A DNA stretch of 64,000 nt, from the NCBI RefSeq assembly GCF_000522985.1, contig NZ_CP007128.1, positions 2,402,220-2,466,219 of the forward strand. Direction: 5' to 3'. Positions 2,255-63,190 of this stretch are shown one piece after another. The position numbers and the translations under genes were made by a program. The stretch's first letter is position 1; every line of letters begins with the position of its first letter. The notes beneath the pieces are model-generated. The model did no database searches. It saw nothing but the letters and a program-made list of their open reading frames with translations, and was not told where the DNA came from. The DNA is from Gemmatirosa kalamazoonensis. Its GTDB lineage: Bacteria; Gemmatimonadota; Gemmatimonadetes; Gemmatimonadales; Gemmatimonadaceae.

Positions 2255-3334
2255 ATGCCCCGCCGCCTGAGCCCCGCGCTCGTCCTCGCGCTCATCGTCC
2301 CCGGGATCGTCGCGCTGATGTCGGCGACGCAGTCGTGGATGCTGATGTCGCACGAGCGCGGGCCGCGGCCGCCGTACTCCACGATCGCCGGCTACAACCT
2401 CGCGACCTGGTACCTGTGGGCCGCGCTCGCGCCGCTCATCGTCGCGCTCGGACGGCGGTTTCCGCTCGACGGCGCGCGGTGGCGCCGCTCGCTGCCGGTG
2501 CACGTCGTGGCCGGCGCCGCGATCGCGTTCGCGCACGCCGCGGCGACCACCGTGTTCGTGTGGCTCGGCATCCGCACCATCGAGAACGAGTCGTTGAGCG
2601 CGATGTTCCGCGGCACGACGTTCTCCCGCTTCCACTTCGAGCTGCTGCTCTACTTCGCGATCCTCGGCGCGACGCTCGCGATCGACTACCATCGCGCGTT
2701 CCGCGACCGCGCGGTCCAGGCGAGCGCGCTCGCCACGGAGCTCGCGCAGGCGCGGCTCCGCGCGCTGAAGATGCAGCTGCACCCGCACTTCCTGTTCAAC
2801 ACGCTGCACGCGATCACGGTGCTCGTCGACGAGGATCCGGCGGCGGCGCGGCGCATGGTCGCGCGGCTCGGTGAGCTGCTGCGCCACACGCTCGCCGCGA
2901 ACGGATCCGACGAGGTACCGCTCGGCGCGGAGCTCGACTTCCTCCGGCTCTATCTCGAGATCGAGGAGACGCGCTTCCAGGACCGGCTGCGCGTGTCGTA
3001 CGACGTCGCGCCCGACGCGCAGGCCGCGCTCGTGCCCGACCTCATCCTGCAGCCGCTCGTCGAGAACGCGGTGAAGCATGCCGTGAGCGCGCGCACGGCG
3101 CCGGTACGCGTCACGGTGTCGGCGCGCCGCGAGGGCACGCGGCTCGAGCTGCGCGTCGACGACGACGGCCCCGGGCTCGGCGACGGCGCGCCGCGCGACG
3201 GCATCGGGCTCTCCACGACGCGCGAGCGGCTCGCGCGCCTCTACGGTGACGCGGGCCGGCTGACGTTAGGCCCGGGCAGCGGCGGCGTGGGCGCGTCGGC
3301 CGTCGTGGAGCTGCCGTACCGCCCGGCCGCGTGA
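2255..3334 (+). CDS. LytS/YehU-type sensor histidine kinase
   Basis: A membrane sensor kinase of 359 residues. It has four predicted membrane segments (about 10-25, 48-65, 82-105, 128-143) and no long periplasmic loop. The His_kinase box is LKMQLHPHFLFNTLH with the phosphoacceptor His near 178. The N box is LVENAVKHA (about 268-276) and the ATP lid starts at DDDGPGLG (302). The architecture is the one that pairs with LytTR regulators. The ATG at 2255 was chosen because it follows a TACTTT -10-like box; an in-frame TTG at 2246 is less likely. The stop overlaps the GTG start of the response regulator, so the two are co-translated. Confidence 0.9.
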   Translation: MPRRLSPALVLALIVPGIVALMSATQSWMLMSHERGPRPPYSTIAGYNLATWYLWAALAPLIVALGRRFPLDGARWRRSLPVHVVAGAAIAFAHAAATTVFVWLGIRTIENESLSAMFRGTTFSRFHFELLLYFAILGATLAIDYHRAFRDRAVQASALATELAQARLRALKMQLHPHFLFNTLHAITVLVDEDPAAARRMVARLGELLRHTLAANGSDEVPLGAELDFLRLYLEIEETRFQDRLRVSYDVAPDAQAALVPDLILQPLVENAVKHAVSARTAPVRVTVSARREGTRLELRVDDDGPGLGDGAPRDGIGLSTTRERLARLYGDAGRLTLGPGSGGVGASAVVELPYRPAA

Positions 3335-4167
3335 GCGCCGCGCCCGGCGAGCGCGCCGCCGCGCCGCTGCGCGTGCTGCTGGTCGACGACGAGCCGCTCG
3401 TGCGCCGAGGACTGCGCACGTTCCTCGCCGCGGAGCCGGGCGTCGAGGTGGTGGGCGAGTGCCGCGACGGGCGCGAGGCGCTCGGCGCGGTGCGCGAGCT
3501 GTCGCCCGACGTGATGTTCCTCGACGTGCAGATGCCGGAGCTCGACGGCTTCGGCGTGCTCGATGCGCTCGGCCCCGGCGACCGGCCGGCCGTGGTGTTC
3601 GTCACCGCGTTCGACGCGTACGCCATCCGTGCGTTCGACGTGCACGCCGTGGACTACCTGCTGAAGCCGTTCGACGAGCCGCGCTTCCGCACCGCGCTCG
3701 AGCGCGCGCGCGAGCGTGTCGCCGCCCGGCGCGGCGCGGCCGCCGGCGTCGCGTCGGTGCCTCACGACCCGTCGCGCGTCGCGCTCGACGCGCTGCTCGC
3801 GCAGCTCCGCGGCGACGGGCGCGTCGCGGGCGACTGGCTCGCCCGCATCGCCGTGCGCGAGACGGACCGCGTGACGTACGTGCCGGTGGCCGATGTCGAC
3901 TGGCTCGAGGCGGACGACAACTACGTGCGCGTGCACACCCGCGGCGGCGCGCGTCTCGTGCGCGAGACGCTGAAGGCGCTCGAGGCCCGGCTCGACCCGC
4001 GCCGCTTCGCGCGCATCCACCGCTCGGCCATCGTGAACCTCGAGCGCGTACGCGAGCTGCGCCCCACGTTCAACGGCGAATACGTCGTGGTGCTCGCGAC
4101 GGGCACCCGCCTGACGCTGAGCCGCGGCTACCGTGACGCGTTCTTCGATCGGATGGGAAAGGGCTGA
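3331..4167 (+). CDS. LytTR-family response regulator
   Basis: A 278-residue DNA-binding regulator. The receiver domain spans about 14-130, with acidic pair DD 19-20, phosphoacceptor Asp 65 in FLDVQMPELDG, Thr in VFVTAFD and Lys in YLLKPFD. A linker leads to a LytTR DNA-binding domain (about 165-275) containing VDWLEADDNYVRVHT and FARIHRSAIVNLERV. The GTG start overlaps the kinase stop by four bases (GTGA), so the phosphate donor is most likely the preceding kinase. The target genes cannot be told from sequence. Confidence 0.92.
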   Translation: MSAAPGERAAAPLRVLLVDDEPLVRRGLRTFLAAEPGVEVVGECRDGREALGAVRELSPDVMFLDVQMPELDGFGVLDALGPGDRPAVVFVTAFDAYAIRAFDVHAVDYLLKPFDEPRFRTALERARERVAARRGAAAGVASVPHDPSRVALDALLAQLRGDGRVAGDWLARIAVRETDRVTYVPVADVDWLEADDNYVRVHTRGGARLVRETLKALEARLDPRRFARIHRSAIVNLERVRELRPTFNGEYVVVLATGTRLTLSRGYRDAFFDRMGKG

Positions 4168-4216
4168 TGCGGCGGCGCTGATGCGGCGGCGCTGGAACCG
4201 CGGCGCTCGGACGGCG
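4163..4216. repeat. left inverted arm flanking the four-helix-bundle gene
   Basis: Two copies of a 14-bp unit CTGATGCGGCGGCG, followed by CTGGAACCGCGGCG. This is the inverted counterpart of the array at 4691-4765. It starts at the stop codon of the LytTR gene. Confidence 0.85.
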
Positions 4217-4234
4217 CGCCTCTTCTAGTTGGCG

Positions 4235-4618
4235 CTAAGTGTCGGGCGGTTGCTCCAGGCGGGCGATGAGGGCGAGGAGGAGACGTCCCGTGTGGCAGAT
4301 GCGGGTGCCCAGCGAGGCGATCTGGGCAGGCGTGGCCAAGTCGCTGTCTGCGAGCTCCTCGATGTCGGACTCGAGCTCCTGAAGCGAGCCGCGAGAGAAG
4401 TAGAGGAAGCGGAGATAGTCGGCCCTCGTGGCCCGGCCGCTGCCTTCCGCGATGTGCGCGTGGATCGACCGTGCCGAGCCCCGGAGCTGCGCCGCGAGCG
4501 AGAGCTCGCATCTCGGCAGTTGGCGCGCGAAGCCGCGAACTTCCTTCGAGAGCGCGATCGCCTCCTGCCACACCCGCAGTCCGCGGAACGACCGCCAGCT
4601 GTCGTCGCCGTCTATCAT
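4235..4618 (-). CDS. four-helix-bundle protein (S23/Avd-like, TIGR02436 type)
   Basis: A small all-helical protein of 127 residues from the ATG at 4618; an in-frame GTG at 4627 would add three residues. It shows the family hallmarks: SFRGLRVWQEAIALSKEV near the N terminus, HIAEGSGRATRADYLRFLYF in the middle, and an amphipathic last helix. Relatives are encoded inside 23S rRNA intervening sequences or next to reverse transcriptases as Avd, an RNA/DNA-binding accessory. Here there is neither an rRNA nor an RT nearby. Instead the gene sits alone between inverted arrays of a 14-bp unit (4163-4216 and 4691-4765), so gene and repeats look like one element. Its function in this setting is unknown. 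Confidence 0.85.
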   Translation of the reverse strand: MIDGDDSWRSFRGLRVWQEAIALSKEVRGFARQLPRCELSLAAQLRGSARSIHAHIAEGSGRATRADYLRFLYFSRGSLQELESDIEELADSDLATPAQIASLGTRICHTGRLLLALIARLEQPPDT

Positions 4619-4690
4619 GCCCCACACTGCAACCCGGCCGCGGCGCCGACTGCACCTTCGGAACGCGGCTCGGGCCCAGGAAACGCAGTA

Positions 4691-4765
4691 TCAGAGCCGC
4701 CGTTCCAGCGCCGCCGCATCAGCGCCGCCGCATCAGCGCCGCCGCATCAGCGCCGCCGCATCAGG
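4691..4765. repeat. right inverted arm flanking the four-helix-bundle gene
   Basis: About four copies of AGCGCCGCCGCATC, preceded by GCCGCCGTTCC, which pair with CTGGAAC-CG-GCGGC of the left arm. The copy number (four) differs from the left arm (two). The array ends at the stop codon of the CotH-like gene (4761). Confidence 0.85.
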
Positions 4766-5846
4766 TCCCCGGCAGACACGTCTCGCGCAGATCCTTCGCG
4801 AACCGCTTCGTGTCCTTCGCGTCGGCGAAGAAGTCGTCGATGTAGCCCACGGCGCGCTTGGCGTAGCCCTTGTCGAGCGCGGGCACCGACTCGTACAGCG
4901 CGCGGATCGCGTCGCGCTTCGCGGTGAAGCGCGCCACCGCGTCGGCGACCTGCGGATCCGTGAGGCACGGGCCGCGGTACAGCCGCTCGCGCACCGTCTT
5001 GATCGGCAGCCGCGGGTCGGGGGACGAGTAGCGCGTGTCGACGAGCCCCGAGAAGTCGAAGTCGTACGGCACCGCCGTCATCCCCTGCGGCGTCGTGACG
5101 AGCCGCACGTTGTGCAGCGCGCCGAGCGAGAAGTCGGTGTTGCCGATGAAGTACTCCCAGATGCCGAGCAGCGCGGCCGACGAATCGGACACGTCGTTGT
5201 ACCGCCCGCCCCTCGCGGTGAGCACGTCGCCACCGAGTCGGTCGCCGAGCTCGCGCTCGCTCTCGAGGAACATCCCCCATCGCTCCACGACCTTCGTCGT
5301 GTCGCGCACGTCGACGTAGCGCATGCGCGCGAGGCGCGGCCGGAAGCTCACCGGCGTCAGGAGGTTGTGCGCGCGGTAGGCCAGGTACTCGCGCAGCACG
5401 TACTGCTCGTAGAGGTTCGAGTCGTTGCAGTGCGTGCCGAGCTTCAGCGCCTTCTGCCCGGCGAACAGCGTGTGCTTCGTGCCGGAGTCGAACACGACGC
5501 GGAGCGGCGGGAAGCTGCACGTCCCGCGCGAGAGCCGGAAATGCCCGCGCGTCGAGAGCTGCACGGGGATGCGCACCACGCGACCCGCGGAGTCCGTGTA
5601 GGCGAGCGTCGCCGCGCGCAGCTTCGGGCGGAGCGTGTCGCGATCGCCGCCGAGGGCCTTCCAGTCGCCGGTGAGCGTCACGTGGATGACGCTGTCGGTG
5701 GCGAACAGCGGCGACGCCACGTACGGCTTCGGCGTGCGCTCCGTCTTCGGCGGCTTGTCCGCCTTCGACTTGCCGGCCTTCGGCTGCTTCGGCTGCGCGA
5801 GCACCGCGGCGCCGGCGAGCGCGAGCCCGGCGAGAACGTTGAGCAT
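4761..5846 (-). CDS. CotH-like exported protein
   Basis: A 361-residue protein with an N-terminal signal peptide (LNVLAGLALAGAAVLA) followed by a short Lys/Pro-rich segment. The body contains LKLGTHCNDSNLYEQYVLRE, then WEYFIGNTDFSLGALHNV and VPYDFDFSGLVDTRY, a pattern like the kinase-fold core of CotH-type proteins (Asn-Thr-Asp...His-Asn, then Asp-x-Asp). CotH phosphorylates coat proteins in Bacillus spores; here the substrate is unknown and the protein is probably envelope-located. Its ATG overlaps the stop of the upstream DUF4956 gene by one base (TGATG), a partnership common for DUF4956. The distant similarity keeps confidence moderate. Confidence 0.65.
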   Translation of the reverse strand: MLNVLAGLALAGAAVLAQPKQPKAGKSKADKPPKTERTPKPYVASPLFATDSVIHVTLTGDWKALGGDRDTLRPKLRAATLAYTDSAGRVVRIPVQLSTRGHFRLSRGTCSFPPLRVVFDSGTKHTLFAGQKALKLGTHCNDSNLYEQYVLREYLAYRAHNLLTPVSFRPRLARMRYVDVRDTTKVVERWGMFLESERELGDRLGGDVLTARGGRYNDVSDSSAALLGIWEYFIGNTDFSLGALHNVRLVTTPQGMTAVPYDFDFSGLVDTRYSSPDPRLPIKTVRERLYRGPCLTDPQVADAVARFTAKRDAIRALYESVPALDKGYAKRAVGYIDDFFADAKDTKRFAKDLRETCLPGT

Positions 5847-6904
5847 CACGAGACCTCCGCGTGGACGACGAACGGCGCCCCCTCGCTGCACACCGCGGCG
5901 ACGACGTCGCTCGGCGTGTTCCCCTTGCGCCACCGGACGTTGTACGCGACGACCGGGTCGCCGCCGTCGGTGTCCACCAGATCGAGCCGCCACCGCTTCA
6001 CGCGCGCGTCGAGCACCGGCTCCACGAGCGGGCGCAACGCGTCGGGGTCGGTGGTCACGATGCGCAGCCGCGCGTCGAACTCCGCCTCCGGCGTCGTCAC
6101 GGGCAGGTTCGGCGCGCCCTCCTCGCGGCGCTTCCGCACGCGAGACGCGAGCGCCTCGAGCTGCGCCGGCGCCATCGAGCGCAGCACCTCGTCGTCGATG
6201 CGCGCCACGAACTGGCTCGTGCGGTTCGCGATGGCGAGCGCGCGCTCCATCTGCTTCTGCGCGCGCTCGCCCTCGAGCGCGGGCGGCGTGCGCCCGAAGT
6301 CGGAGTAGAACAGCGCGAGCGCCATCGCGTTGAACAGCACCGAGATGACGACCGCGACCTCGATCTCCACGCCGCACGCGAGCCCCACGCCGGTCACGAG
6401 GAACAGAAAGACCGCGTCCTTGCTGTCCTCGAGCGAGTTGCGGAAGCGCACCGCGGCCACGATCCCCGCGAGGCTGAACGCGAGCGCGACGCTCGTCTTC
6501 ACGAGCACCACCACGCCGGCGACGACGACTGGCAGCAGCACGAGCGTGTGCACCACGGACTGCCGGTACCCCTTCCGCTCGCGCGTCAGCATGTAGATCC
6601 ACGCCACGGGCAGCGCGAGCAGGAACGCGGCGACGACGGCGCCCGCCACCGACAGCGCCACCGGCTCGGCGAGGCGCGCCGCGACGACGTCGCGCTTCGA
6701 GGGCACGGCGCCGAACACCGCGCCGACGTCCAGGTTCGGCGCGTACGACTTCAGCAGCGCGTCGCGCATGTGCGGTGGCACGTGCGGCCACGCGAGCGCT
6801 ACTGCGCCGAACAGCAGCGCGTAGTACAGCACCACGCGCCGCACGATGTTGTCCGTGAGCGCGGTGGTGACGCGGTGGAGGGGCGAGTGGCGCGACGAGG
6901 ACAT
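5846..6904 (-). CDS. DUF4956 membrane protein
   Basis: A 352-residue protein with four to five membrane segments (about 25-45, 75-100, 120-140, 150-200). The family signature is FSLAGIVAAVRFRNSLEDSK followed by DAVFLFLVTGVGLACG. A soluble C-terminal domain of about 140 residues ends in the cytoplasm. Members of this family usually lie beside CotH-like or polyphosphate-polymerase (VTC) genes; here a CotH-like gene follows with a one-base overlap. No VTC domain is seen, so only half of the usual trio is present. The biochemical role is not established. Confidence 0.8.
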   Translation of the reverse strand: MSSSRHSPLHRVTTALTDNIVRRVVLYYALLFGAVALAWPHVPPHMRDALLKSYAPNLDVGAVFGAVPSKRDVVAARLAEPVALSVAGAVVAAFLLALPVAWIYMLTRERKGYRQSVVHTLVLLPVVVAGVVVLVKTSVALAFSLAGIVAAVRFRNSLEDSKDAVFLFLVTGVGLACGVEIEVAVVISVLFNAMALALFYSDFGRTPPALEGERAQKQMERALAIANRTSQFVARIDDEVLRSMAPAQLEALASRVRKRREEGAPNLPVTTPEAEFDARLRIVTTDPDALRPLVEPVLDARVKRWRLDLVDTDGGDPVVAYNVRWRKGNTPSDVVAAVCSEGAPFVVHAEVS

Positions 6905-7001
6905 GGACGCGGGGAGCGTCTCGGGGAGAGCGCCGGCAGGGCGCCGGCGCGTCGCGATGATAACGCCGCCGGAGGATCATGGCGAGATTCGGGGGGCGTC
7001 G

Positions 7002-7007
7002 TACATT
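7002..7007 (+). promoter_or_regulatory. -10-like hexamer TACATT of the phosphatase gene
   Basis: TACATT followed by GC lies 6 nt before the ATG at 7014, the spacing expected for a leaderless mRNA. The upstream sequence is GC-rich with no clear -35 match. Confidence 0.4.
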
Positions 7008-7013
7008 GCCGCC

Positions 7014-8645
7014 ATGCGCGCGCTCCTCTCGCTGTCGCTGTTCGCCGCGTTCGTGTCGGCCGCCGTGCCACTCGGTCGGCATGGCGCCGCCCCCGCACGG
7101 GCGACGGCCGCACCGGAGCGCGTCGCCGCGCAGGCACCGGCGCCCACGCTCGTCGTGGTCGTGACGGTGGACCAGATGCGCGCCGACTACCTCACGCGCT
7201 TCGGGCCGCAGCTCCGTGGCGGGCTCGCGCGGCTGCTGCGCGACGGCACGGTGTTCGACAGCGCGTTCCACGACCACGCCATCACCGAGACCGCGCCCGG
7301 GCACGCGACCATCCTGAGCGGCCGCTTCCCGCGCAGCACCGGCATCACCGCGAACGTCATCGGCGTCGAGGACGACGCGATGCCGCTCGTCGGCCGCGAC
7401 AGCGGCGCGCTGCCGGGCGCGTCGCCGCGCCGCTTCCGCGGCACCGTGCTGTTCGACTGGATGGCGGCCCGCGATCGCGACGCGCGCGCGCTGTCGATCT
7501 CCATGAAGGACCGCGCCGCGATCCTCCCGTTAGGCCGCGCGCGGCAGACGGTGCTCTGGTACGCGCCGACCGGCCGCTTCACGACGAGCCGCTACTACGC
7601 CGACACGCTCCCGACGTGGATCGAGCGGTGGAACGCGCGGCGCGTGCCGTTCCGCTACGCGGGCCGCGTGTGGACGCCGCTCCTCGCCGACAGCGCGTAC
7701 GCCGAGCGCGACGACCAGGCGGAGACCGGGGGCGAGGACCCGGTGTTCCCGCACGCGCTGCCGGCCGACAGCGCGCTCGCCGTGAACGTGGTGCGCGGCA
7801 CGCCGTTCATCGACGAGATCGTGCTCGACGCGGCGATCGACGGCGTGCGCGCGATGGGCCTCGGCACGCGCGCGCGCCCCGACCTGCTCGCGGTGTCGCT
7901 CTCCGCGACCGACGTCGTCGGGCACCGCTGGGGCCCCGACTCGCGCGAGATGCACGACCAGATCCTGCGGCTCGACCGCGCCCTCGGCGCGTTCCTCGAC
8001 TCGCTGTACACGCTGCGCGACCCGTCGCGGGTGATCGTCGCGCTCACCGCCGACCACGGCGTCGCGCGCCTGCCCGAGATCGCGGGCGCCGGGCAGGGCG
8101 GGTCTAACGCCCCGCGCCGCGTCACGCTCGACGCGGTGGTCGACTCGCTCGGCGCGTGGCTCGAGGCGCGGCGCGTGCCGCGCGGGTCGGTGGGCCTCGA
8201 GAACGGCGCGCTGTTCGTCGACCGCGCGGCGCTCGCCGCGGCGAAGGTGAGCGAGGACTCCGTCGTCGACCGCTTCGTGCGCGCGGCGAGCGCCGTGCCG
8301 GGAGTGCTGCGCGTCGATCGGTTCGCCGCGCTCGCCCGCGCCGACACCGTGCATGACGCGATCGCGCGGCGCTGGGTGCACATGCTGCCGCCGGAGTATC
8401 CCGTGCCGGTGGTCGTCACGCTCACGCCGGGCAGCGTGTGGGGCACGCGCACCGCCGCGGAGCACGGCAGCCCGCACGACTACGACGCCCACGTGCCGCT
8501 CATCCTCGCCGGCGCGCCGTTCCGCGCCGGCCACGTGGCCGCGCGCGTCCGCGTCGTCGACCTCGCCCCTACGCTCGCCCGCGTGCTCGGCGCGAAGCCG
8601 AGCGAGCGCATCGACGGCCGGGTGCTGGAGGAGGCGCTGCGCTGA
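7014..8645 (+). CDS. alkaline phosphatase-superfamily phosphodiesterase (PafA/NPP type)
   Basis: A secreted metallo-phosphatase of 543 residues. Residues 1-17 form a signal peptide. The two-metal site is visible: VTVDQMRADY (first Asp), the Thr nucleophile in TETAPGHATI, SATDVVGHRWGPDS (Asp and His), ALTADHGVAR (Asp-His) and the last His in AEHGSPHDYD. The motif order and the NPP-like core match type I phosphodiesterase/PafA enzymes that cleave phosphate mono- or diesters in the periplasm. The ATG at 7014 was preferred to longer in-frame starts because a signal peptide follows and a -10 box precedes it. The gene ends a few bases before a strong repeat hairpin. Confidence 0.88.
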   Translation: MRALLSLSLFAAFVSAAVPLGRHGAAPARATAAPERVAAQAPAPTLVVVVTVDQMRADYLTRFGPQLRGGLARLLRDGTVFDSAFHDHAITETAPGHATILSGRFPRSTGITANVIGVEDDAMPLVGRDSGALPGASPRRFRGTVLFDWMAARDRDARALSISMKDRAAILPLGRARQTVLWYAPTGRFTTSRYYADTLPTWIERWNARRVPFRYAGRVWTPLLADSAYAERDDQAETGGEDPVFPHALPADSALAVNVVRGTPFIDEIVLDAAIDGVRAMGLGTRARPDLLAVSLSATDVVGHRWGPDSREMHDQILRLDRALGAFLDSLYTLRDPSRVIVALTADHGVARLPEIAGAGQGGSNAPRRVTLDAVVDSLGAWLEARRVPRGSVGLENGALFVDRAALAAAKVSEDSVVDRFVRAASAVPGVLRVDRFAALARADTVHDAIARRWVHMLPPEYPVPVVVTLTPGSVWGTRTAAEHGSPHDYDAHVPLILAGAPFRAGHVAARVRVVDLAPTLARVLGAKPSERIDGRVLEEALR

Positions 8646-8726
8646 TCGGGACTCGGGACTCGGGACTCGGGACTCGTGGGCTGACAGCGCCCGAGTCCCG
8701 AGTCCCGAGTCCCGAGTCCCGACTCG
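8646..8726. repeat. hairpin of 7-bp tandem units (GGGACTC)
   Basis: Four to five copies of GGGACTC (8646-8675) face the same number of GAGTCCC (8690-8726). The loop contains CTGACAGCGC. The arms pair almost perfectly, so as RNA this would end or shield the 3' end of the phosphatase mRNA. A direct array of the same unit without inverted arm occurs at 33088-33157. Confidence 0.92.
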
Positions 8727-10774: not shown

Positions 10775-10855
10775 GAGGGCAGGAGGGCAGGAGGGCAGGA
10801 GGGCAGGAGAGTCGACAGCGCTCCTGCCCTCCTGCCCTCCTGCCCTCCTGCCCTC
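10775..10855. repeat. hairpin of 8-bp tandem units (GAGGGCAG)
   Basis: Perfect arms of about 35 bp built from four copies of GGGCAGGA and their complement, with loop AGTCGACAGCG. It separates convergent yhbY and the TonB-C gene and could terminate both. The same unit forms hairpins at 11364-11413 and 28081-28146. Confidence 0.93.
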
Positions 10856-11363: not shown

Positions 11364-11413
11364 GAGGGCAGGAGGCCCTCCTGCCCTCCTGCCCTCCTGC
11401 CCTCCTGCCCTCT
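11364..11413. repeat. asymmetric hairpin of the GAGGGCAG family
   Basis: One copy of GAGGGCAGGAG faces four copies of CTCCTGCCCT. The unequal copy number suggests that arms expand or contract independently. It lies just past the stop of the large peptidase/barrel gene (11418). Confidence 0.88.
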
Positions 11414-24184: not shown

Positions 24185-24303
24185 TGCGGCGCTGATCCAT
24201 CGGCGCTGGCGGGGGCGGTGCCGGTGAGGCGGCGCTGATCCCGCGCGTTTTCAGCGCCGCCGCGCCAGCGCCGATTCATCAGCGCCGCCGCACCAGCGCC
24301 GCG
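24185..24303. repeat. gene-less hairpin related to the four-helix-bundle flanks
   Basis: The left arm has GCGGCGCTGAT, ATCGGCGCTGGCG and AGGCGGCGCTGAT; the right arm has TCAGCGCCGCCGCGCCAGCG, CCGATTCATCAGCGCCGCCG and CACCAGCGCCGCG. The GGCGGCGCTGAT unit is the same as in the arrays at 4163-4216 and 4691-4765, but no gene lies between the arms here. Confidence 0.8.
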
Positions 24304-28080: not shown

Positions 28081-28146
28081 GAGGGCAGGAGGGCAGGAGG
28101 GCAGGAGAGCTTCGGACTCTCCTGCCCTCCTGCCCTCCTGCCCTCA
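28081..28146. repeat. hairpin of the GAGGGCAG family
   Basis: Three copies of GAGGGCAG/GGGCAGGA face three copies of TCCTGCCC around the loop AGCTTCGGACT. It lies 5 bp from the metzincin stop (28151) and upstream of the flavoprotein start. Confidence 0.92.
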
Positions 28147-29926: not shown

Positions 29927-29940
29927 GGAGGCGGATGCGG

Positions 29941-30052
29941 CGGGACGATCTACGGCGGGACGATCTAGGGCGGGACGATCACCTGCGGGACGATCACCTG
30001 CGGGACGATCACCTGCGGGACGATCACCTGCGGGACGATCACCTGCGGGACG
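29941..30052. repeat. 15-bp tandem array (CGGGACGATCACCTG)
   Basis: Seven full copies and a partial one; five are identical and the first two vary at the end (CTACGG, CTAGGG). The CGGGACGA core equals that of the array at 62855-62955. The rest of the 300-bp gap between the hydrolase and DUF1259 genes (29927-30226) holds no other recognisable element. No inverted arm lies nearby. Confidence 0.95.
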
Positions 30053-33078: not shown

Positions 33079-33087
33079 ACCGTCGGA

Positions 33088-33157
33088 ACTCGGGACTCGG
33101 GACTCGGGACTCGGGACTCGGGACTCGGGACTCGGGACTCGGGACTCGGGACTCGGG
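33088..33157. repeat. 7-bp direct tandem array (GGGACTC), about nine copies
   Basis: A pure head-to-tail array of the unit that forms both arms of the hairpin at 8646-8726. Here the inverted half is missing. It lies between convergent genes. Confidence 0.93.
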
Positions 33158-51449: not shown

Positions 51450-51539
51450 GGAGGCTGTTGGTGGGGAGACGACGCAAGCTACCGCGGGGACCGCACGCCG
51501 CCATCGGTCGCGGACGTGGCGGGAGCGGCGCCCGGCCGG

Positions 51540-51668
51540 GACTCCACGTACGAGTTTCTGGAGGACTGAAGGAGGACTGAAGAAGGAGAACACCAACAGA
51601 GTTGTTGGTCCTTCTTCAGTCCTCCTTCAGTCCTTCTTCAGTCCCACGAACACTCGTACGTGGAGTCC
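51540..51668. repeat. long hairpin with tandem GGAGGACTGAA units
   Basis: The outer stem GGACTCCACGTACGAG/CTCGTACGTGGAGTCC encloses an inner stem of two to three GGAGGACTGAAG copies and their complement. The tip is CACCAACAGAGTTGTTGGT. It lies in the 238-bp gap between the ggt start and the DUF2961 stop; nothing else is evident there. Confidence 0.92.
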
Positions 51669-51687
51669 AGGACGGGCCACACCACGC

Positions 51688-56609: not shown

Positions 56610-56688
56610 TCACGCGGAGCCGCGGAGAACGCGGAGAACGGCCACGACAATTGGCGTTCTCCGCGTTCTCCGCGTCTCCGCGTGAGAC
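56610..56688. repeat. hairpin of GCGGAGAAC units
   Basis: TCACGCGGAGCCGCGGAGAA plus CGCGGAGAACG pairs with CGTTCTCCGCG and TTCTCCGCGTCTCCGCGTGA. The tip is GCCACGACAATTGGC. It stands between the xanthine dehydrogenase operon and the allantoinase gene, both on the plus strand. Confidence 0.92.
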
Positions 56689-57981: not shown

Positions 57982-58146
57982 GCACGCGGAGCCGCGGAGC
58001 ACGCGGAGCACACCATTGAACCGCAGAGGGCGCAGAGAACGCAGAGGAGACCAACAAGAATTGGCTCGCCTCTGCGTCCTCTGCGTCCTCTGTGGTTGAC
58101 ACACACAGCCGAGGCAGTTCTCCGCGTTCTCCGCGCCTCCGCGTGA
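57982..58146. repeat. two-layer nested hairpin (GCGGAGNAC outer, GCAGAGAAC inner)
   Basis: The outer arms are CACGCGGAGCCGCGGAGCAC (57983) and CTCCGCGTTCTCCGCGCC... ending GCGTGAG at 58146. The inner arms are TTGAACCGCAGAGGGCGCAG and its match CTGCGTCCTCTGTGGTTGA. The tip is GAGACCAACAAGAATTGGCTC. It lies between allB and the allantoicase gene. Confidence 0.92.
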
Positions 58147-62298: not shown

Positions 62299-62367
62299 GC
62301 TGCGTGGCTGCGTGGCTGCGCGGCTGCGTGGCTGCGTCACGACCCACGCAGCCACGCAGCCACGCAG
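62299..62367. repeat. hairpin of 8-bp GCTGCGTG units
   Basis: Four to five copies of GCTGCGTG (62299-62336) face three copies of CCACGCAG (62344-62367). It separates the YCII stop from the sigma-factor start within one likely operon. Confidence 0.93.
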
Positions 62368-62369
62368 CA

Positions 62370-62854: not shown

Positions 62855-63190
62855 CACGGCGGGACGACTGACGGCGGGACGACTGACGGCGGGACGACTG
62901 ACGGCGGGACGGCGAACGGCGGGACGACGAACGGCGGGACGTTCGACCGCGGGATGGGGATGCGCTCAGGGGGATCCAGCTCGCGTCGAAATGGTACGGC
63001 GGTCGGACCGGGGTGTAGCACCTTGGGCGAAGGGGGGGGAGCCCCCCCTGGTAACTACGATCCGGCGCCAGGGATCCCGCAGTAGATCGTCCCGCAGTAG
63101 ATCGTCCCGCCGTAGATCGTCCCGCAGTAAGGCATCCCGCCGTTCGTCGTCCCGCCGTTCGTCGTCCCGCCGTCAGTCGTCCCGCCGTCA
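62855..63190. repeat. inverted arrays of a 15-bp unit (GACGGCGGGACGACT) with a core
   Basis: The left array of about six copies runs 62855-62955; the right array of about seven inverted copies (GTAGATCGTCCCGCC, TTCGTCGTCCCGCCG, CAGTCGTCCCGCCGT) runs 63073-63190 into the stop of puuD. Between them lies a 117-bp core with the G/C hairpin at 63020-63054. This fills the 416-bp gap from 62772 to 63187; no gene is evident in it. Confidence 0.92.
63020..63054. repeat. G/C-tract hairpin, second copy
   Basis: CTTGGGCGAAGGGGGGGGAG followed by CCCCCCCTGG, the reverse complement of the element at 18508-18551. It lies in the loop of the 15-bp inverted arrays. Confidence 0.75.

Follow-up and report, generated by a model that had tools for sequence, protein, structure and literature searches.

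Architecture of the element

The DNA considered here, called the window throughout, is a stretch of 64,000 nucleotides of Gemmatirosa kalamazoonensis (G000:C2:2402220-2466219, G000 denoting the organism's 7.48-Mb genome). The object of the analysis is a gene of the S23/four helix bundle family (TIGR02436, PF05635), located in the loop of a long hairpin whose two arms are oppositely oriented tandem arrays of one and the same 14-bp unit, CTGATGCGGCGGCG. A preliminary description of this DNA had pointed out the arrangement, which is confirmed here as a real observation: the left array (4163-4194) comprises 2.3 copies with 100% match and the right array (4690-4764) 5.4 copies in the opposite orientation with 90% match, while the arms extended to 4147-4216 and 4698-4767 are 81% complementary over 70 nt. 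RNA folding of 4147-4767 yields a single long stem around the gene (z = -6.9), none of 20 shuffled sequences being equally stable. S23 is the sole gene between the arms, and the element as a whole lies between the protein-coding frames 3331-4167 (plus) and 4761-7304 (minus), the 5′ array overlapping the stop codon of the former gene, the product of which looks like a LytTR response regulator.

The encoded protein matches TIGR02436 at 74.6 bits (cut-off 24) and PF05635 at 80.7 bits (cut-off 33.8); an alternative GTG start located nine bases upstream of the ATG would extend the gene to 4235-4627. The AlphaFold2 model (mean predicted local distance difference test score 94) consists of four main helices and displays the helical-bundle fold of the solved members of the two families. 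The best structural match found by Foldseek is XCC0516 of Xanthomonas campestris (2gsc), with a template modelling (TM) score of 0.81-0.86, whereas BT_0352 (2rld) scores 0.73-0.78 and Avd, either alone or in the ribonucleoprotein (RNP) of the reverse transcriptase of diversity-generating retroelements (DGRs) (4dwl, 8ub7), scores 0.70-0.77 by query length with a sequence identity of 16-19%.

Nine S23 genes and their repeat families

Nine genes of the G. kalamazoonensis genome match TIGR02436 and eight of them are enclosed by inverted tandem repeats, the unit being different in each case (Table 1); the exception is L008, a divergent gene with unrelated gene-less hairpins on its two sides. A survey of 864 kb (the window and 800 kb of contig C2) detected about 100 gene-less hairpins, and some 60 of these belong to the eight S23 unit types, each of which has one S23 gene: 14 are of the GAGGGCAG type, 11 of TCGGGAC, 11 of GCTGCGTG, 9 of GAGCGTG, 6 of the 15-bp type and 4, 4 and 2 of the three 14-bp types. 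The remainder are mostly made of units that flank GxxExxY genes. The three inverted array pairs above the arm threshold having a clean loop of 300-800 nt are all S23 loci; one weaker wide-loop pair (772758-773529) is without S23. The gene-less relative of the window's element that the preliminary description had placed at 24185-24303 does exist, but is degenerate.

Enclosure in relatives and across phyla

Enclosure was assessed from the best local alignment between the 350 bp on the left of the gene and the reverse complement of the 350 bp on its right, a score of at least 16 being taken as a pass; the test being local, degenerate arms or a complete hairpin on one side escape detection. The same test shifted by 850 bp served as control and was passed in 1.6% of 247 cases. 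The S23 loci passing were 8 of 9 in the genome itself, 23 of 27 in the same family or order, 18 of 22 in a sample of the phylum and 55 of 70 in a GTDB-wide set made up of Pseudomonadota, Planctomycetota, Acidobacteriota, Bacillota, Bacteroidota, Cyanobacteriota, Chloroflexota, Nitrospirota and others, together with a few Gemmatimonadota and at least one repeated locus (L167 = L086). In the Lysobacteraceae, with flanks of 450 bp, 24 of 28 S23 loci passed vis-à-vis 0 of 56 controls. Enclosure thus applies to 79-86% of the S23 genes of relatives, Lysobacteraceae and other phyla, as opposed to 0-2% of the shifted positions, so that the association between S23 genes and hairpins is well established and the suspicion that TIGR02436 genes of related genomes are flanked in this way above chance is borne out. 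S23 itself is present in 17 of the 21 genomes of the family and order and in 44 of the 99 Lysobacteraceae sampled.

The arms have common features. Their period in 104 passing loci is 7 in 71, 8 in 17 and 14 in 8, and in 99 of 102 loci the 5′ arm contains more G than C; since a hairpin reads identically on both strands, this G-rich 5′ polarity is a property of the element and not of the choice of strand. Furthermore, in non-syntenic pairs the similarity of the units rises with the identity of the proteins (Mantel r 0.20, 0 of 2000 permutations), a correlation that fits either co-inheritance or co-evolution. A G-quadruplex was considered as a ligand common to all these proteins; many arms lack G-runs (e.g., CAGTTTT and GAGTATT), so that such a ligand is not general.

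Plasmids 1 and 2 of Calothrix brevissima NIES-22 carry the same S23 gene (L193, L194) beside a phage integrase gene. These near-identical copies were considered as a test of mobility and set aside, because both are found in a shared larger block next to the integrase and are therefore uninformative on the element itself.

Heptamer repeats of Lysobacteraceae and cyanobacteria

The arms of the Lysobacteraceae S23 loci are mostly heptads of the GGGAATC/GGGATTC type, and gene-less GGGAWTS hairpins occur in 24 of the 99 genomes of this family. S23 is found in 22 of these 24 genomes, compared with 22 of the 75 that lack such hairpins (Fisher p = 5e-8, the kinship of the genomes being uncorrected); the gene-less repeats thus tend to occur where the gene is present, a result in favour of the preliminary description. 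One Nostoc and one Ramlibacter genome endowed with S23 also contain gene-less GGGRNT hairpins, and the S23 loci of Nostoc, like those of Lysobacteraceae, bear arms of the heptamer type.

Repeats of this kind have been described before. PMC4692102 reports the GGGAATC repeat of Xanthomonas, a genome of which has ~70 inverted pairs without a known cause, as well as the GGGGA(C/T)T heptamers of Nostoc, and PMC2670836 reports the cyanobacterial short tandemly repeated repetitive (STRR) hairpins, made of 7-bp repeats without known function. Like the S23 arms, these are G-rich, intergenic 7-bp units, often present in Xanthomonas as inverted pairs; the two papers assign them no settled function, and their searched parts draw no link to S23. 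A literature search, mostly outside subscription journals, for a link of four helix bundle proteins with repeats found none.

Dispersal and placement of the gene-less copies

Sequence on both sides of the gene in the gene-bearing copy can be aligned with the gene-less copies, which lack the gene itself; the aligned part includes non-tandem sequence. In the L007 family the alignment extends over 82 columns of the left and 81 columns of the right flank with 85% identity, and similar flank alignments were obtained for the L003, L004 and L005 families; since the arms are self-complementary, the match to the two flanks is partly redundant and the non-repeat stretch in L007 constitutes the stronger evidence. 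Gene-less hairpins look like internally deleted versions of the gene-bearing copy, as in miniature inverted-repeat transposable elements (MITEs), most strongly so in the L007 and L004 families. Identical loops recur at unlinked sites, namely TGGGGGAGCAGT and GCTGCGGAC in the TCGGGAC family and AGCTTCGGACT in the GAGGGCAG family, and long homologous loops are common to unlinked sites in the 15-bp family. The hairpins have therefore been dispersed as units, and slippage in place is by itself insufficient to account for them.

As to where these copies reside, the stop of an open frame of at least 150 codons is no more than 60 bp away for 86% of 94 gene-less hairpins, compared with 23% in the control, and for 53% frames of this length end on both sides (control 2%). 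Open frames are in this GC-rich genome a rough proxy for genes, a bias that the control shares.

A variable site in a related genus

The gap between a gene ending with ..GCAAGCAGTAG and a YchF-like gene in the related genus g22 (loci L208-L247) provides a series of occupied and empty states of one site. The shortest gaps, of 45 bp (G163) and 63-65 bp (G120, G169), represent empty sites, which the preliminary description had proposed to seek and which are thus found in three related species. In G034 the gap amounts to 108 bp and contains a plain terminator-like hairpin; G157 and G160 have ~175 bp, and the 298 bp of G170 accommodate a gene-less repeat hairpin. In G051, G089, G078, G165, G164, G159, G158 and G065 the gap extends to 594-729 bp and contains S23 with repeat hairpins. 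The repeats start at the stop codon, with a unit that varies from one species to another. No target site duplication is evident by eye at this site, where the flanks have diverged.

The S23 proteins encoded at this site are 44-68% identical, whereas the N-terminus of the adjacent YchF is 98-100% identical. S23 is under purifying selection, the ratio of nonsynonymous to synonymous divergence (dN/dS) being 0.08 for a pair at dS 0.39, with other pairs near or beyond saturation. With up to about half of their residues differing, the g22 S23 proteins display an unusually fast evolution that accompanies the changing repeat units.

Candidate enzymes and a second hairpin system

The whole genome contains no match to RVT_1 and none to Y1_Tnp. 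The early remark that neither a transposase nor a reverse transcriptase accompanies the element is thereby extended, for these two domains, from the locus to the genome, and enzymes of these two types were rejected as drivers of the element.

Most GxxExxY/PF13366 (PDDEXK_3) genes of this genome (L010-L018) have a complete hairpin on either side. The repeat families concerned, CGCAGAGGA, CACGCGGAG, AGGACTGAAGA and GACAGGAT, are different from those of S23 and each include gene-less copies, with loops that often contain CCAAC..GTTGG. Hairpins of GxxExxY-type families are found in the window at 2035-2200, 51560-51644, 56612-56683 and 57982-58144. Those of the AGGACTGAAGA family (51535-51670 in the window plus 14 copies in G000:C2:1-800000) have, outside the tandem arrays, conserved outer ends, CTCCACGTACG..CGTACGTGGAG, that may be likened to what a classical terminal inverted repeat would look like. 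L014/L016 (G000:C3:993804-994150) and L017/L018 (G000:C2:1535069-1535301) are each split over two frames, and are therefore frameshifted or misassembled. The PDDEXK_3 nuclease was also considered as a driver and rejected: it has its own hairpins here, but among the 99 Lysobacteraceae only 6 genomes possess it, and of the 24 with gene-less GGGAWTS hairpins just 1 does.

Two arrays of S23 unit types occur in the window in a single orientation, with no opposite arm detected nearby, and have the appearance of half-hairpins: 10.7 copies of TCGGGAC at 33083-33157 and 7.5 copies of a 15-bp unit like that of the ACGGCGGGACGAC family at 29940-30052.

Table 1. The S23 element of the window, the other hairpins of S23 unit types in the window, and the repeat units of the enclosed S23 loci of the genome
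Feature	Position in the window	Strand	Unit and remarks
S23/four helix bundle protein gene (TIGR02436, PF05635)	4235-4618	minus	loop of the hairpin; start ATG
5′ arm, 14-bp tandem array	4147-4216	none	CTGATGCGGCGGCG; exact 4163-4194, degenerate to 4216
3′ arm, 5.4 copies of the same unit reversed	4690-4767	none	CTGATGCGGCGGCG
Gene-less hairpin	8646-8722	none	TCGGGAC (7 bp) family; gene-bearing copy L006
Gene-less hairpin	10775-10855	none	GAGGGCAG (8 bp) family; gene-bearing copy L001
Further array	11375-11412		GAGGGCAG unit
Gene-less degenerate hairpin	24185-24303	none	14-bp family of the window's element; arms 24186-24214 / 24260-24288, 90% complementary
Gene-less hairpin	28081-28145	none	GAGGGCAG family; loop AGCTTCGGACT identical to unlinked copy at G000:C2:524059
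Gene-less hairpin	62299-62368	none	GCTGCGTG (8 bp) family; gene-bearing copy L009
Gene-less hairpin	62856-63188	none	15-bp ACGGCGGGACGAC family; gene-bearing copy L004
S23 locus L001			AGGGCAGG
S23 locus L002			GAGCGTG
S23 locus L003			CGGAACTGCGGTTT (14 bp)
S23 locus L004			ACGGCGGGACGAC (15 bp)
S23 locus L005			CTGATGCGGCGGCG (14 bp), the unit of the window's element
S23 locus L006			TCGGGAC
S23 locus L007			ACGGCGCGGGCGAT (14 bp)
S23 locus L009			GTGGCTGC

Comparison with known systems

ORFs of the S23 type in the loops of hairpins are known inside bacterial 23S rRNA, for instance in Coxiella and Leptospira (PMC4990558), an article that also cites an old idea of the S23 ORF serving mobility. 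The preliminary description, whose reading is supported here in part, had suggested a new role for the protein family; that role has some precedent in these ORFs. The element of the window shares with these intervening sequences (IVSs) an inverted-repeat stem whose loop encodes a PF05635 protein, but is intergenic instead of being inserted in a 23S rRNA helix, has arms built of units of 7-15 bp in tandem and is accompanied by many gene-less copies and by several unit families per genome.

The other close comparison is with REPINs, the hairpin-forming doublets of repetitive extragenic palindromic (REP) sequences, and RAYTs, the REP-associated tyrosine transposases (PMC3116915). In both systems each repeat family has one gene, present in a single copy and flanked by its own repeat (here eight genes and eight unit families), and there are many gene-less hairpins, several families per genome and co-divergence of gene and repeat. 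On the other hand, RAYTs are Y1 transposases, whereas S23 has no known catalytic domain and its gene resides inside the hairpin loop; not being a Y1 (HuH) transposase gene, it does not belong to the REPIN/RAYT group. Likewise, the early suggestion of an autonomous element with a small derivative, as in transposon/MITE pairs, holds insofar as the gene-less copies look like versions lacking the gene, but a MITE parent encodes a transposase and the one gene that the arms enclose here is S23. Finally, Avd of the DGRs has the same fold as S23, but a DGR has a reverse transcriptase and the present genome has no RVT_1 match.

Interpretation

The explanation that we favour, and regard as fairly probable, is that the window contains the gene-bearing copy of a two-component repeat element resembling REPIN/RAYT, in which an Avd-type protein would replace the transposase. 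Two arms of short tandem repeats form a hairpin whose loop encodes a helical-bundle protein of the S23/Avd type, and gene-less hairpins with matching arms are scattered over the genome, for the most part immediately after stop codons. Each S23 protein, presumably a small nucleic-acid-binding oligomer, would recognise the hairpin of its own family, as either RNA or single-stranded DNA, and may help it to be copied or kept, thereby mobilising gene-less copies in trans, with the DNA chemistry being carried out by enzymes of the host. On this view the element would correspond to the S23 intervening sequences of 23S rRNA in free-standing form.

Several data do not sit easily with this explanation. 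S23 genes without arms amount to 11-21%, several of them being divergent (L008, L073, L074), and two Lysobacteraceae genomes (G202 and G222) have gene-less GGGATTC hairpins and no S23 match, hairpins that either outlasted a gene since lost or constitute a counter-example. Genus g22 keeps S23 at the same site in at least eight species, so that the element moves rarely, and at this site the gene tends to be located beside or between complete hairpins, several loci failing the arm test. No catalytic domain able to copy the element was found; the window protein has an isoelectric point (pI) of 6.3, compared with a family median of 8.8 (69% of the family being above 8), so that its charge gives no direct support for binding; arm covariation between close syntenic pairs gave no decision either way; and, genomes within a family being related, the Fisher and Mantel values overstate independence.

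Some of the same data could be accounted for if the hairpins were 3′-end elements, i.e., terminators or mRNA stabilisers, and S23 an RNA-binding regulator of a host system operating at the RNA level, the spread of the repeats being secondary. Such a system would agree with the preference of the hairpins for sites behind stop codons, often between two frame ends, with the purifying selection on S23 and its retention at syntenic sites, with the long stem of the RNA fold and with the homology to Avd, a protein that functions as part of an RNP. We nevertheless consider it rather unlikely, since the dispersal of whole units with common loops, the existence of a separate repeat family for each gene in one genome and presence or absence at the level of species all look selfish and not regulatory, and insertion behind stop codons is likewise expected of a harmless mobile element. 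The possibility that S23 does not act at all, its genes being merely tolerated or captured in the loops of hairpins that spread by an unrelated route, may seem in keeping with the lack of a known catalytic function and with the position of the GxxExxY genes of this genome, flanked by complete hairpins of other families, which indicates that repeat hairpins accompany more than one kind of small gene; it is improbable given that every clean wide loop above threshold holds S23, that S23 and heptad arms co-occur across many phyla, that unit similarity tracks protein similarity and that gene-less GGGAWTS hairpins depend on the presence of S23. Least probable is that a RAYT/IS200-type Y1 transposase or a reverse transcriptase, encoded at another locus, moves the hairpins and that S23 is its accessory: the REPIN/RAYT-like architecture (PMC3116915) and the fold shared with Avd, partner of the DGR reverse transcriptase, would favour such an arrangement, but it is contradicted for this genome, in which neither enzyme is matched despite ~100 hairpins per 0.86 Mb.

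If the two-component explanation is extended beyond this genome, it is quite possible, although somewhat less likely than not, that a whole and very widespread class of mobile repeats of bacteria, including the heptamer and STRR hairpins of xanthomonads and cyanobacteria, is run by S23: without transposase or reverse transcriptase, a small hairpin-binding oligomer would recruit host enzymes to copy its own family, and the 23S rRNA IVSs would represent a special case.

Enclosure in a hairpin is the rule for the widespread S23 family, each gene being the gene-bearing copy of its own hairpin family. The TIGR02436/S23 proteins have solved structures; to our knowledge, DGRs and rRNA intervening sequences are the only contexts in which a function is known for them. 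The link between S23 and the heptamer/STRR repeats gives each of the two a testable partner, the predicted ligand of an S23 protein being readable from the flanks of its own gene; and if it is true that S23 drives the spread of these hairpins without transposase or reverse transcriptase, this would constitute a new way for bacterial repeats to multiply.
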